Notes under the pieces: generated by a model
What the model was told of the DNA's origin: nothing
What the model saw: the letters and a program-made list of their open reading frames with translations, nothing else
Database searches by the model: none
Shown: positions 9,784 to 57,280 of the stretch, in pieces
Layout of the letters: every line of letters starts with the position of its first letter
Numbering within the stretch: position 1 is the first letter of the stretch
Made by a program: the position numbers and the translations under genes
Assembly: GCF_013623775.1 (NCBI RefSeq)
Contig: NZ_JABFAM010000014.1
Coordinates: 1 to 64,000 of the forward strand
DNA: 64,000 bases
Reading direction: 5' to 3'
From: Rufibacter sp. XAAS-G3-1
Lineage (GTDB): Bacteria; Bacteroidota; Bacteroidia; Cytophagales; Hymenobacteraceae

Positions 9784-9888
9784 AGAGGCAGCGGTGGAAT
9801 CTTTGTGTAAGATAGGTGCTTCTCCAGGCAATGGCAAACAGCTGCATTGAATGAATGTGTGATTGAATGATGGAGTGATTTGGATGAT

Positions 9889-10031
9889 GTAGGGGCAATC
9901 CCTTGTGGTTGCCCTAAAGGTTAGCGGATTGGTGCTTTCTGCCGTTGCAGGACAGGTCGCGACCTGTCCGTACTTTTTCTGGAAAATAGCATGGGGAATG
10001 GAAGAGGGCAACCACAAGGGATTGCCCCTAC
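9889..10031. repeat. Nested palindrome: inverted GGGCAACCACAAGGG pair
   Basis: Two inverted 27 bp copies of the repeat (9889-9915 and 10005-10031) enclose a perfect 20 bp palindrome, GGACAGGTCGCGACCTGTCC, at 9950-9969. It lies in the 318 bp gap between the penicillin acylase-type gene and the Spy-like gene. Confidence 0.8.
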
Positions 10032-10052
10032 ATTTTCAAAATGAACAGACAC

Positions 10053-14783: not shown

Positions 14784-15668
14784 CTATTGCCTGGCCCGGC
14801 TCATCAAGAAAGCCCGCAGTGCTTTGTCCAAAGGCTCATGCAGGTGGAACCGTTCGTAATGGATCTGCTTTTTGCGGGTGTCGGTTTCCAACGTACGGAG
14901 CCATTCCTGCAAGCGGGCAAGATACTCCGTTCGGTGGGTTTCAGAACTGACTTGAATGACCTGGCCGGTCTCCAGGTCTTGAAAGGAAACCTGGCCTTGG
15001 TAAGTGAACTCCAATTCGTTCTTCCCCATGAGGTGAAACAAGAGCGTATCTTTCTCGCGGGCGCCAATCTTGCGCAGCGCCTCGGTAATCTCTGAGGTCT
15101 GCTCGTACATATCCGTCACCAGCACCGTCACCTCTTTTTGCCGTTTTTTTGCGAAAACAGGCGCTAAACGATCAGCGGCCGGGAAATGGCCATTGGGTTT
15201 TACGTGCTCTAACTGATGGAAGAACCGCTGCAGGTGCTGGCTACCCTGCTGCGGCGCGAGCTGCACCACTTGATTCTCTTGTAGCAAGAACAGTCCCACG
15301 GCATCGCCCTGCTGCGTGGCTAAATAAGCTAAGGTCGCTACCAGATAGCGGGCATAGTCCAGCTTGGTCAGGTTCCCGTCTAGATGGCCCATGGAACCGC
15401 TGGCATCCACCACAAACCGCACGGCCACGCTGCTGTCCACCTCAGACTCCCGGATGTAGTACCGGTCTGACCGCGCGAACATCTTCCAGTCCAGTTGCCG
15501 CAAGTCATCACCGGGCTGATAACTGCGGTACTGCGCAAACTCAATCCCCGCGCCCCGCCTTATGCTTTGGTTCTGCCCCAACAGAAACCCATCCACCACC
15601 GCCTTCGCAATCAAGCGCAGGTCTTTGATAGCGGCAAACGTTTGTGGGTTTAAGAGACGGTGGGGCAT
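14784..15668 (-). CDS. DUF58 domain protein (MoxR-associated)
   Basis: About 294 aa from the ATG beginning MPHRLLNPQTFAAIKDLR. A longer frame runs 34 codons upstream through repeat DNA and is rejected. The DUF58 signature is clear (YRSYQPGDDLRQLDWKMFAR, near 45-65), and a VWA-like DASGS metal-site motif follows. DUF58 proteins work with MoxR AAA ATPases, probably in assembly or activation of envelope or metal-dependent complexes. The moxR gene lies upstream on the same strand, but a DUF559 gene and an inverted repeat pair separate the two here. Confidence 0.88.
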   Translation of the reverse strand: MPHRLLNPQTFAAIKDLRLIAKAVVDGFLLGQNQSIRRGAGIEFAQYRSYQPGDDLRQLDWKMFARSDRYYIRESEVDSSVAVRFVVDASGSMGHLDGNLTKLDYARYLVATLAYLATQQGDAVGLFLLQENQVVQLAPQQGSQHLQRFFHQLEHVKPNGHFPAADRLAPVFAKKRQKEVTVLVTDMYEQTSEITEALRKIGAREKDTLLFHLMGKNELEFTYQGQVSFQDLETGQVIQVSSETHRTEYLARLQEWLRTLETDTRKKQIHYERFHLHEPLDKALRAFLMSRARQ

Positions 15669-15708
15669 TTCTTTTGATTCTTTGTTGATAAAATAGGTAC
15701 TTCTTCGT

Positions 15709-15843
15709 CCCCCTTTGAAGGGGGTAGGGGGATGATTACTCGTGCTGATAATGGCGTTCCCGAGAATCAATTTTGCTTGCTGAATTTTGTAGCTGACCGC
15801 TCTTCAACTGCCTTGGTCATCTCCCTACCCCCTTCAAAGGGGG
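15709..15843. repeat. Inverted pair of CCCCTTTGAAGGGG repeats
   Basis: Arms at 15709-15736 and 15817-15843 are inverted copies of a repeat centred on CCCCCTTTGAAGGGGG with a GTAGGGGGATGA flank. The second arm contains the stop codon and last codons of the DUF559 gene. Other copies follow the large fold-back repeats at about 806-840 and 32638-32672. Confidence 0.85.
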
Positions 15844-16254
15844 AAAAAATGCGTGCATCAAAACTAGGTTGGGGGGTTTGGTTTCCTTTCTGCTATCCAA
15901 CTCTCCAAGGTTCGCTGCACGTTGCGATTTATTGATGATGAAGTCATGCATGACTTCATCATCAATAAATCGCAACGTGGTGAAGCCTAGTTCAGACAGT
16001 GCTTTGTCTCTTTCGGCATCTTCTTCCAATTTAAATTTATGCGAATAGCCGTCTACTTCAACAATCAACTTCAACTCCTTGCAAAGGAAATCGGCAATGC
16101 AGTTTCCAACTGGCCGCTGTCGCAGAAAGGAGACACCCAGTTTGCCTTTGCTCAACAACTCACCCCAAAGCCTGATTTCGGCTTTAGTAGAATCTGCCCG
16201 ATGCCCTTTTGCCAGCGGTTTCAGCCTTTTATTATAGTGGTGATTGTCTGGCAT
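15817..16254 (-). CDS. DUF559 (Vsr-like) endonuclease-domain protein with repeat-encoded tail
   Basis: A 145-aa protein. Residues about 10-105 are a DUF559 domain related to very-short-patch-repair endonucleases (TKAEIRLWGELLSK, FLRQRPVGNCIADFLC with D55, LIVEVDGYSH with E66 and D68, LSELGFTTLRFIDDEV), so a PD-(D/E)xK-like nuclease site is plausible. The last ~40 residues are not family-like. A perfect 62 bp palindrome (15918-15979) encodes residues about 92-112, and the terminal FFPPLKGVGR is translated from a CCCCTTTGAAGGGG repeat. It sits 19 bp after moxR, splitting a normally adjacent moxR-DUF58 pair. The cellular role is unknown. Confidence 0.82.
   Translation of the reverse strand: MPDNHHYNKRLKPLAKGHRADSTKAEIRLWGELLSKGKLGVSFLRQRPVGNCIADFLCKELKLIVEVDGYSHKFKLEEDAERDKALSELGFTTLRFIDDEVMHDFIINKSQRAANLGELDSRKETKPPNLVLMHAFFPPLKGVGR
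15918..15979. repeat. Perfect 62 bp palindrome with no spacer
   Basis: The 31 bases from 15918 (beginning CACGTTGCGATTTATTGATG) are followed directly by their exact reverse complement, centred on TGCATGCA-like sequence at 15948/15949. It lies inside the 3' part of the DUF559 gene. Confidence 0.93.
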
Positions 16255-16273: not shown

Positions 16274-17269
16274 CTACCGCCACCCTTCCCTCGGCAGTTC
16301 CACTCCTTTCAGCAGTTCCTCCACCACTTTGTCGGTGGTAATGTTATCCGCCTCGGCGGAGAAGTTCACGAGAATTCGGTGCCGAAGCACCGGATAGGCC
16401 ATGGTCTGCAAGTCTGGCAAGGTCACCGCGAAACGGCCTTGCAGCAGCGCACGGGCTTTGGCGGTGAGAATAAGTGCCTGCCCGGCCCGCGGCCCAGCTC
16501 CCCAGCGCACAAACTCCTGCACAAACGGCACCGGGCTCTCTGCCGGACGGGTGGCACGCACCACACGGGCCACGAAGGCCACCAACTCATCTGAAACAGT
16601 TACTTCGCGCACCAGACTTTGCAAGGCCAGAACCTCGGCACCGGACAATATAGGCTGCACGGTTTCACGCTTGCCGCCGGTGGTGTTTTTTAAGACGGAG
16701 ATTTCCTCCAGTTCCGTAGGGTACTTGATTTTGATGTAGAGCAGGAAACGGTCTAACTGGGCCTCTGGCAAGGGATAGGTGCCGCTCTGCTCAATGGGGT
16801 TCTGTGTAGCAAGCAAGAAGAACGGGCGCGGCAGCGGGTAGGTTTTACCGGCGTAGGTTACCTCAAATTCCTGCATGGCCTCCAGCAACGCCGCCTGCGT
16901 TTTAGGCGGTGTCCGGTTAATCTCATCCGCCAAGACAATGCTGGCGAAGATGGGGCCTTCATTGAACTGGAAAAAGCGCTTGCCCGTGGTGTGGTCTTCC
17001 TCCAGCACTTCGGTACCCAGAATATCGGTGGGCATGAGGTCTGGGGTGAACTGGATGCGGCGGAACGGCAAGTCTACCGCACTGGCCAGGGTGCGCACCA
17101 ACAGCGTTTTTGCCAGGCCTGGCACGCCTTCCAACAGTCCGTGTCCACCGGCTAGCAGCGTGATAAGCACCTCATCCAGTACTTCCTGCTGGCCTACAAT
17201 GATTTTACTTATTTCCTGCCGAAGCGCGGGCAGCTTTGCTAACAGTTGGGTTACTTCTTGTGCAGTCAC
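16274..17269 (-). CDS. MoxR family AAA+ ATPase
   Basis: A 331-aa AAA ATPase. Walker A is GVPGLAKT near 60, Walker B is IVLADEINR near 110, sensor 1 is LATQNPIEQSG, and there is a C-terminal lid domain. MoxR ATPases act as chaperone-like motors with DUF58/VWA proteins. DUF4159 lies upstream and a DUF58 gene downstream, the usual Bacteroidota set, with a DUF559 gene inserted before DUF58. The 249 bp upstream gap holds two strong hairpins (17325-17370 and 17477-17516). Confidence 0.93.
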   Translation of the reverse strand: MTAQEVTQLLAKLPALRQEISKIIVGQQEVLDEVLITLLAGGHGLLEGVPGLAKTLLVRTLASAVDLPFRRIQFTPDLMPTDILGTEVLEEDHTTGKRFFQFNEGPIFASIVLADEINRTPPKTQAALLEAMQEFEVTYAGKTYPLPRPFFLLATQNPIEQSGTYPLPEAQLDRFLLYIKIKYPTELEEISVLKNTTGGKRETVQPILSGAEVLALQSLVREVTVSDELVAFVARVVRATRPAESPVPFVQEFVRWGAGPRAGQALILTAKARALLQGRFAVTLPDLQTMAYPVLRHRILVNFSAEADNITTDKVVEELLKGVELPREGWR

Positions 17270-27514: not shown

Positions 27515-27651
27515 GCTGTTTGGGGGCTGTTTTTGCAAAAGTAGGCTTAAAACCGCGCTACTCTGGCAAGGGAATGCAGTTTGCTGTTGCTGGCGTAGCG
27601 GCGGGTTGATGCGGTGCCCTTATGCTGGGTTGTTGCATGGTTTCTCTCCGT

Positions 27652-27786
27652 GCGCTCACGGCCGCGGGGCCCCGTCTTCCCCTCGCGCACTGCCCTTTCG
27701 GCCTGCACAGTTTATTTCTCTTAGTTGGTGTTGGTCTATGGCCAAAAGCGAGGCGCGCTCGGGGAAGACTGGAATTGGGTAAAGTT
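27652..27786 (+). repeat. Dispersed fold-back repeat, copy B
   Basis: The core begins GCGCTCACGGCCGCGG and ends near GGGGAAGACTGGAATTGGG. It matches copies A, C and E through the two arms while the central 30 bases differ. Confidence 0.87.
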
Positions 27787-27908
27787 GTAGAAATGATATC
27801 TATTCAAGCAGCGTGTTTCTTGTCAGGCAAGAAGAGGAAGTAGCCTTTAATTCGTTTTCTATAAACGAATAAGTAGCAAGACTAAATTAGTTTAAACTAC
27901 CCCCTTTC

Positions 27909-27998
27909 TGTCCTCCTGGAAGGATCTTGGTGGCGAACGGTAATTACGCTTATTCAGAAGCTTTTCTAGTTCGCCCACAAGATCCTTTCAGGAGGACA
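27909..27998. repeat. GGATCTTGTG inverted-repeat element
   Basis: 30 bp arms (27909-27938 and 27969-27998) are complementary except for about three positions; each contains GGATCTTG and GGCGAAC. A second element of this family is at 46808-46895. Confidence 0.85.
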
Positions 27999-28243
27999 AA
28001 ATGATAAAATGTATTTGTGTTCAATTACCTATCAACCGTAATTAAGGGTGCGCATTGGAAGGAGATGGAAATGGTGCAAAACCCACCCCTGCCCCTCCTA
28101 GGAGGGGAATAGACCTTTGCAGGAGAAGGGAATGCGTGGCAGAGACAAGGCAGTGCCTGGTCTCTACAGGTACTTATTGAAACATTATCGAAAGTCACGG
28201 AAGTAAATCCGCGCCATAGTGCCATAGAGAAAGCGAGCTTACT

Positions 28244-28523
28244 TACTTTCCCAGTTCCAGTCTTCCCCGAGCGCGCCTCGCTTTTGGCCCTGGATAGACA
28301 TCAGCTAAGAGAAAATACCTTCTCAGGCCGAAAGGGCAGTGCGAGAGGGGAAGACGGGGCCCCGCGGCCGTGAGCGCATACCGCCAAAGATGAAACAATA
28401 CAGCACTTGCACCCACGTAACGAACTGATAAGCCAAGGGAACAGCATAAGGCATGCACAAACTAATATCCACGCAAAAGCGGGCAAGCCAGGGGAACAGC
28501 GTAAGGCATGCACAAACCTAATC
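28244..28523 (-). repeat. Dispersed fold-back repeat, copy C with duplicated upstream module
   Basis: The core is 28244-28377 on the minus strand. Its upstream module, containing GCATGCACAAAC, is present twice (about 28440-28470 and 28500-28523), as it partly is in copy A. Confidence 0.85.
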
Positions 28524-37502: not shown

Positions 37503-37546
37503 TTTAAAACAGAAGAGGGAGCCTAGGCTCCCTCTTCTGTTTTAAA
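37503..37546. terminator. Perfect 44 bp palindromic terminator
   Basis: The 22 bases beginning TTTAAAACAGAAGAGGGAGC are followed by their exact complement without spacer, centred on CCTAGG. With A-runs and T-runs at both ends it can work in both directions. A hairpin-family half follows at about 37545-37580. Confidence 0.85.
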
Positions 37547-46773: not shown

Positions 46774-46807
46774 CACGCTCCCCTATAAAAGTAATTTTCT
46801 CCTTTTA

Positions 46808-46895
46808 TCATCCTGAAAGGATCTTGTGAGCAAACTAGGAAAGCGTTGTAGTAAACGCTATTACCGTTCGCTCACAAGATCTTTCCAAGAGGACA
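46808..46895. repeat. GGATCTTGTG inverted-repeat element
   Basis: Arms of about 28 bp containing GGATCTTGTGAGC and GCTCACAAGATC, about 30 bp spacer. Same family as 27909-27998. Confidence 0.83.
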
Positions 46896-46962
46896 AAAAA
46901 GAGTAGTATGCAATACATGTATTTTAATACCCTCCTGTTGCATCTACTCCGTATAGTTAAAC

Positions 46963-53605: not shown

Positions 53606-53685
53606 AGGGCAATCCCTGGTGGTTGTTCTTCGCGCGTTATTGCTATCGTGCCTGACAAGGGCAACCACCAGGGATTGCCCCTACA
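53606..53685. repeat. Inverted GGGCAACCACCAGGG pair
   Basis: 53606-53626 and 53658-53685 are inverted copies of the GGGCAATCCCTGGTGG type, separated by about 31 bp, in the gap between htpG and the His-rich gene. Confidence 0.8.
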
Positions 53686-57246: not shown

Positions 57247-57280
57247 AGAAAGGGCTCCGACGCGCGTCGGAGCCCTTTCT
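57247..57280. terminator. Perfect 34 bp palindromic terminator
   Basis: AGAAAGGGCTCCGACGC and its exact complement without spacer, followed by a T-run, 20 bp after the lipoprotein stop codon. A hairpin-family copy follows directly (57279-57314). Confidence 0.87.

Follow-up and report, generated by a model that had tools for sequence, protein, structure and literature searches.

A probable template-switch palindrome in a DUF559 nuclease gene of Rufibacter, and the hairpin repeats that accompany genes of this kind

The 64,000-nucleotide stretch of Rufibacter sp. XAAS-G3-1 analysed here (hereafter the window) carries a perfect 62 bp palindrome within a DUF559 gene. Taken together, our results make it probable that this palindrome arose by template switching and has no role of its own, and that it lies in a gene for a Vsr/EDxHD-like nuclease, one of a class found beside or between inverted, pyrimidine-armed hairpin repeats which the nuclease may itself spread along with its own cassette. 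The palindrome is confirmed, its mechanism is ordinary and its detail neat, and the setting, i.e. a DUF559 gene accompanied by hairpins, outweighs it in importance. Indeed, DUF559 genes beside hairpins form a widespread and little-noticed class, placed the way mobile elements are.

The palindrome extends from 15918 to 15979, with arms at 15918–15948 and 15949–15979 and no strand assigned. A palindrome scan bore out, to the base, the first-pass annotation of this locus, which had described 31 bp followed by their exact reverse complement with zero spacer. At the composition of the 64 kb window, the expected number of perfect arms of at least 31 bp is approximately 1.5e-14, so that this palindrome stands far above chance. 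It is the largest of three perfect spacerless palindromes with arms of at least 12 bp in the window, the second measuring 44 bp (37503–37546) and the third 34 bp (57247–57280), and a perfect spacerless palindrome of 52 bp is present in a genome of the same order (locus L167). These three shorter examples weaken the argument, also made at first reading, that perfect palindromes of such a size are unstable in most bacteria; strong instability is a matter of much longer palindromes.

Searches of the 5.3 Mb draft genome (73 contigs) returned no second copy of the palindrome. We also looked for it among homologues, as had been suggested at the outset: in a DNA-level alignment of the window gene with 11 orthologues (67–77% identity over the first 275 bases), all 11 orthologous genes lack it, so that the finding named beforehand as refuting the idea did not turn up. 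The same alignment places 13 extra bases in the window gene only, with a gap at that place in 11 of 11 orthologues. They correspond to a templated insert of 16 nt (15925–15940, minus strand) where the orthologues have about 3 nt, i.e. a net gain of 13 bp, and the exact reverse complement of this insert is found at 15957–15972 (minus strand), in the upstream arm, so that all 16 of its nucleotides copy the opposite arm. In the window, CATCATCAATAAATCG (15925–15940) fills the gap between CATGACTT and CAACGTG. Sequence, alignment and exact templating constitute the observed part of the event. Its anchors are likely to be the inner AAGTCATGCATGACTT and the outer CACGTTG/CAACGTG, parts of both being kept in the aligned orthologues.

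A quasipalindrome template-switch mutation accounts best for the palindrome. During copying of the DUF559 gene, the nascent strand would have folded back at the inner 16 bp palindrome AAGTCATG/CATGACTT and used its own upstream arm as template for 16 nt, before the outer microhomology CACGTTG/CAACGTG brought it back to the normal template. This excursion would have turned a quasipalindrome into a perfect 62 bp palindrome and moved the frame by +13. The direct ancestor, the strand and the timing of the switch are what we infer from sequence, the ancestor being deduced from orthologues of the identity given above. Quasipalindrome mutations in which template switching makes a quasipalindrome perfect are described in Escherichia coli in the sections of PMC7202029 considered here, and the Rufibacter event would resemble them in that an imperfect inverted repeat was probably made perfect by nascent-strand copying, with a frameshift. 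Unlike the cases in those sections, it is a natural variant recognised by cross-species comparison, without reporter selection. The palindrome would thus be a clean natural case in which a single local template switch produced both a frameshift and a long perfect palindrome at once.

The first-pass annotation had offered two origins, a fold-back or template switch replacing the end of the gene, or an assembly artefact. The former is well supported as regards the switch, in the form of a short there-and-back event with a net gain of 13 bp and a shifted frame. Replacement of the gene end did not occur, as native 3' sequence is found downstream of the palindrome. As to the latter, a palindrome created by a fold-back or chimeric read might be feared in a draft of 73 contigs, but native sequence comes back at the microhomology after the palindrome with the old frame intact, whereas a simple assembly fold-back would continue as reverse complement with no such return, and we therefore hold an artefact to be very unlikely.

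The DUF559 open reading frame (ORF) as now read spans 15817–16254 on the minus strand and encodes 145 aa with a shifted C-terminus, ending within a repeat. PF04480 (DUF559) is recognised on aa 10–104 (E 3.1e-25; 88.6 bits versus a curated cut-off of 20.6), and the shifted ORF remains open across the region that holds the invariant residues. That the family-like sequence stops at the palindrome, as had been stated, is true of the present frame but not of the DNA: its last part, NVQRTLESWIAERKPNPPT and a stop codon (15864–15923, minus strand; stop at 15864–15866), is intact out of frame, and this old end resembles the NVQRTLETWIAEK ends of the orthologues. It is this persistence of the native end in another frame which shows that the gene end was not replaced. 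An intact orthologue was modelled at a mean pLDDT of 84.6, with residues 105–114 as its last helix, and residues 105–145 of the window protein are predicted with a pLDDT below 50; on these models, the nuclease core would remain open with the last helix lost, and the function of the window protein is likely to be lost or changed. One could suppose, from the 41 open codons past the break and the end of the ORF in the repeat, that a fold-back swapped the gene end for a new functional C-terminus. Both the old end lying out of frame and the low pLDDT of residues 105–145 argue against such a gain, which we consider highly improbable.

On the same minus strand, the gene is bordered upstream by a MoxR-type AAA ATPase gene (16274–17269) and downstream by a DUF58 gene (14784–15668, the start at 15668 being our choice). 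A REP-like inverted repeat pair with no strand assigned (15704–15855; arms 15708–15735 and 15817–15844) overlaps the end of the shifted ORF. This pair is dispersed, with 96 matches in the genome, of which 18 are other copies aligned over 138–160 bp. The hairpin flanks of the host gene's relatives could suggest that the 62 bp palindrome is a repeat element in its own right, or else a site that the DUF559 nuclease recognises and has made or preserved; nevertheless, it is AT-rich, unlike the hairpin repeats beside DUF559 genes, it is single among the copies returned, and local templating explains its every letter, which leaves this idea scarcely credible. Most probably, then, the palindrome is just a mutation that serves no purpose in itself.

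The window belongs with Rufibacter-like genomes, all five of its nearest named loci being Rufibacter. Among the matches listed, the MoxR–DUF58 junction contains DUF559 and the repeat pair in nine of 16 same-genus genomes, the window's own included; DUF559 is missing from the junction in the other seven, four of which have a different inverted-repeat element. Allowing up to three mismatches, the 28 bp Rufibacter unit occurs in 12 to 87 copies per genome throughout the 16 same-genus genomes. Elsewhere in the family it was found in 12 of 21 genomes, and outside the family in none of 22; its reversed pattern gave no match in any genome scanned. Comparison by eye of a first orthologous intergenic site showed the repeat pair in G000 and G003 and not in G004, G009 or G010, four other genomes having related but different C/G-rich repeats there. 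At a second site, also compared by eye, G000, G005, G006 and G010 have the pair, G003 and G008 have a reduced form of it, and G002, G004 and G009 do not have it. Other inverted repeats occur elsewhere in the window (9878–10042, 53607–53680 and 46803–46898), of the GGGCAACCACAAGGGATTGCCC and TCATCCTGAAAGGATCTTGTG types, the latter type occupying the MoxR–DUF58 junction in four relatives; the interval 27651–28378 contains an inverted repeat of 132 nt, 88% complementary, with arms 464 nt apart.

DUF559 searches yielded 116 loci, of which 110 had near-full domains and 98 were distinct, spread over several phyla (L001, L005, L035 and L036 were excluded, as the window gene or as duplicates of loci in the set). 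A GC-rich pyrimidine-armed hairpin lies within 210 nt on either side of 87 of these 98 domains, versus 55 of 1960 control windows; the proportion is 47/51, 15/18 and 25/29 in the three sets, and by side it is 76/98 downstream, 63/98 upstream and 52/98 on both, the remaining 11 domains having no such hairpin within 210 nt. Perfect stems of at least 7, searched over the same distance, gave a similar picture: 81 of 98 downstream, 63 upstream, 91 on either side and 53 on both, versus 269 of 1960 control windows. We relied on control windows and gene ends from the same loci, as the stem shuffles keep single letters only. Where both hairpins are present, the upstream and downstream hairpins of one locus are alike (at least 8 nt in common) in 39 of 53 cases, versus 15% of mismatched pairs. 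Named loci behave likewise, with a perfect pyrimidine-armed stem of at least 7 on at least one side in nine of 11 (N. gonorrhoeae, A. lipoferum, S. meliloti, Sinorhizobium, Sphingomonas, Deinococcus, Pseudanabaena, Shinella and Photobacterium); the A. brasilense and E. coli loci have only imperfect pyrimidine-armed stems, or other hairpins.

The association also holds between genomes. A set of 115 genomes from a single class, built around a Maricaulis metagenome-assembled genome, showed a hairpin pattern in 18 of the 30 that have a strong DUF559 match and in four of the 85 others (P 8e-10), and, among genomes of at least 2.5 Mb, in 15 of 24 versus one of 32, ‘strong’ meaning E below 1e-25, a cut-off fixed after the table was read.

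These hairpins might be ordinary terminators or generic intergenic repeats, with DUF559 a passenger in repeat-rich spots. Stems of at least 7 do occur at other gene ends of the same loci, at 31 of 125 (versus the 81 of 98 downstream of DUF559), and the repeats also exist without a cognate DUF559 gene. However, 63 of 98 domains also have a hairpin upstream, often one of two that are alike; repeat variants differ by DUF559 lineage, and cassettes are found inside ORFs, which offer no place for terminators. We therefore judge the passenger explanation unlikely, and retain a specific tie between DUF559 and its hairpins.

The lineage effect is seen with a second repeat variant, taken from the flanks of DUF559 genes in two further genera of the same family. 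Among the matches listed, this variant is present in eight of nine genomes of those genera (4–48 copies) and in four of 16 Rufibacter-group genomes (1–6 copies); the Rufibacter unit is found in none of the nine. In 10 counted genomes, and again among the matches listed, 10 of 28 DUF559 genes have the variant within 400 bp, where 0.075 would be expected. Three genomes (G018, G023 and G035) had at first been omitted by eye and contribute eight further listed DUF559 genes, all of them more than 400 bp from any listed copy; adding them back makes 10/36 the fairer count. Repeat variants thus appear, from these sequence comparisons, to track DUF559 lineages broadly. A one-to-one rule is opposed by the persistence of the Rufibacter unit in genomes without a close DUF559 orthologue, and strict co-presence of repeat and cognate gene within Rufibacter was rejected: among the matches listed, G003, G004 and G006 are devoid of such an orthologue, yet possess 35, 48 and 43 units.

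As a comparison, we considered 20 Y1_Tnp (RAYT-type) loci of the genus. The DUF559-type repeat was found within 1.2 kb of none of the 20 genes, and at 1.2–1.5 kb in two of the loci. Other palindromes, with stems of at least 8, lie within 600 bp in 14 of the 20; the palindromes of L176, L187, L188 and other RAYT-type loci are unlike the DUF559-type repeat.

Cassettes are found not only between genes but also within them. In the window's own genome (L003, G000:C58:6465-6752) and in R. ruber (L091), a DUF559 cassette sits in frame inside methionine synthase (MetH), with MetH domains recognised by Pfam on either side, the flanks of the insert reading as linkers (e.g. PHPQPLSHGEGG and TPSPRERGQGGE); two proteobacterial MetH proteins are without it. 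We then considered 20 DUF559 loci chosen for their long open frames, a choice that makes them uninformative on frequency, and scanned 18 of them with Pfam (all but L243 and L245). The hosts, in related genomes, were MetH (four), leucyl-tRNA synthetase (LeuRS; four), UvrD-like helicases (three: L237, L242 and L247), GATase_5 proteins (three), RecQ (two) and restriction–modification methylases (two, L246 and L248, to which L028 can be added). Host domains lie on both sides of DUF559 in 12 of the 18. DUF559 is at the C-terminal end in the three GATase_5 hosts, which we take to be of the PurL type, and on the N-terminal side in the two RecQ hosts; it occupies two different places in the LeuRS hosts (L235, L238, L239 and L241), and one MetH frame (L233) stops shortly past it. 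No splicing (Hint) domain, as would mark an intein, appears in the Pfam families listed for the 21 scanned ORFs. Stems of at least 7, not all pyrimidine-rich, are present on both sides in 11 of the 20 long-frame loci; at others, one flank carries a weak hairpin or lacks one altogether. Rickettsia palindromic elements also sit inside genes and are read in frame within proteins; unlike them, the DUF559 insert also carries a nuclease domain.

In Foldseek comparisons, the orthologue model matched 3hrl (NGO0050; E 7e-7), a protein related in sequence as well, and the EDxHD homing endonuclease I-Bth0305I (3r3p; E 1.6e-4), its match to Vsr being weak (E 0.07). In the portions of the literature considered, a DUF559 gene had already been assigned to the EDxHD family in 2022 (PMC9403480), and a Caulobacter DUF559 protein was treated as Vsr-like in 2026 (PMC12907096). 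The likeness to I-Bth0305I thus resides in the predicted fold of the catalytic domain; unlike that enzyme, DUF559 comes as a solitary short gene or an in-frame insert with hairpin flanks, and we found no intron or intein here. A PADLOC search with three DUF559 proteins returned nothing.

Other parallels come from repeats. As described in the part of PMC3733652 considered here, RAYT/REP and REPIN systems share with our cassettes dispersed palindromes, inverted pairs, an adjoining solitary gene of nuclease type, and variants per enzyme lineage. They differ in the enzyme, which is here DUF559, with a Vsr/EDxHD-like fold, and not an HUH tyrosine transposase (Y1_Tnp type), and the RAYT-type genes of the genus are without the DUF559-type repeat within 1.2 kb. 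The same part of that work (Di Nocera et al. 2013, PMC3733652), which also names the Rickettsia palindromic elements RPE-4 and RPE-6, presents CGTC-REPs as hairpin repeats in inverted pairs for which no dedicated transposase was found, leaving their mover open. Inverted hairpin pairs are common to both, and the TTCGTC at one end of the Rufibacter unit made identity with CGTC-REPs tempting, but the unit has neither the AT at the stem start nor the CCA tail described there. Identity was rejected, the CGTC/TGTC tag occurring in 12 of 175 DUF559-side hairpins versus 11.2 in shuffles, with AT start and CCA tail absent. A common [CT][AG]GGG tail is modestly enriched (52 of 175 DUF559-side hairpins versus 31.9 in shuffles), and a dRS3-like motif was found beside none of 113 DUF559 ORFs.

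We read DUF559 and its hairpins as a REP-like nuclease cassette, working like RAYT/REPIN without being one, and distinct from the published CGTC class. The DUF559 nuclease would spread the hairpin repeats and its own cassette, both between genes and in frame within them, in parallel to the role ascribed to RAYTs in the spread of REPs. Judging from sequence data, we give about an even chance to the nuclease being what moves the repeats. To a broader proposal we give neither more nor less credence than to its contrary: a large class of pyrimidine-armed hairpins across bacterial phyla may have DUF559 nucleases as its dedicated partners, in a second REP-and-enzyme system with a Vsr/EDxHD-type nuclease replacing the HUH transposase, and with cassettes placed at intergenic sites or set in frame, with no splicing involved, into housekeeping genes (e.g. 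those of methionine synthase and leucyl-tRNA synthetase). Searches of an open-licence library turned up no published tie between DUF559 and hairpin repeats. Many bacterial hairpin repeats are without a known enzyme, and a DUF559 partner, if true, would provide one that can be tested and would account for many C/G-rich palindromes; Vsr-like DUF559 proteins, such as E. coli YcjD and Caulobacter VsrA, would then be recast as possible mobile-element nucleases.

At the E. coli ycjD site, a sapF–ycjD–fabI query was covered over at least 80% of its length in 3333 of 5426 E. coli genomes. The four ycjD-less E. coli loci considered (L190, L191, L192 and L195) offered no clean empty site for a free-standing cassette: each has an efflux cluster beside sapF or fabI. 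In E. coli strain 167, the ycjD region is approximately 106 bp shorter than in K-12 (L193 versus L194), and the ycjD of this strain is annotated without its C-terminus.
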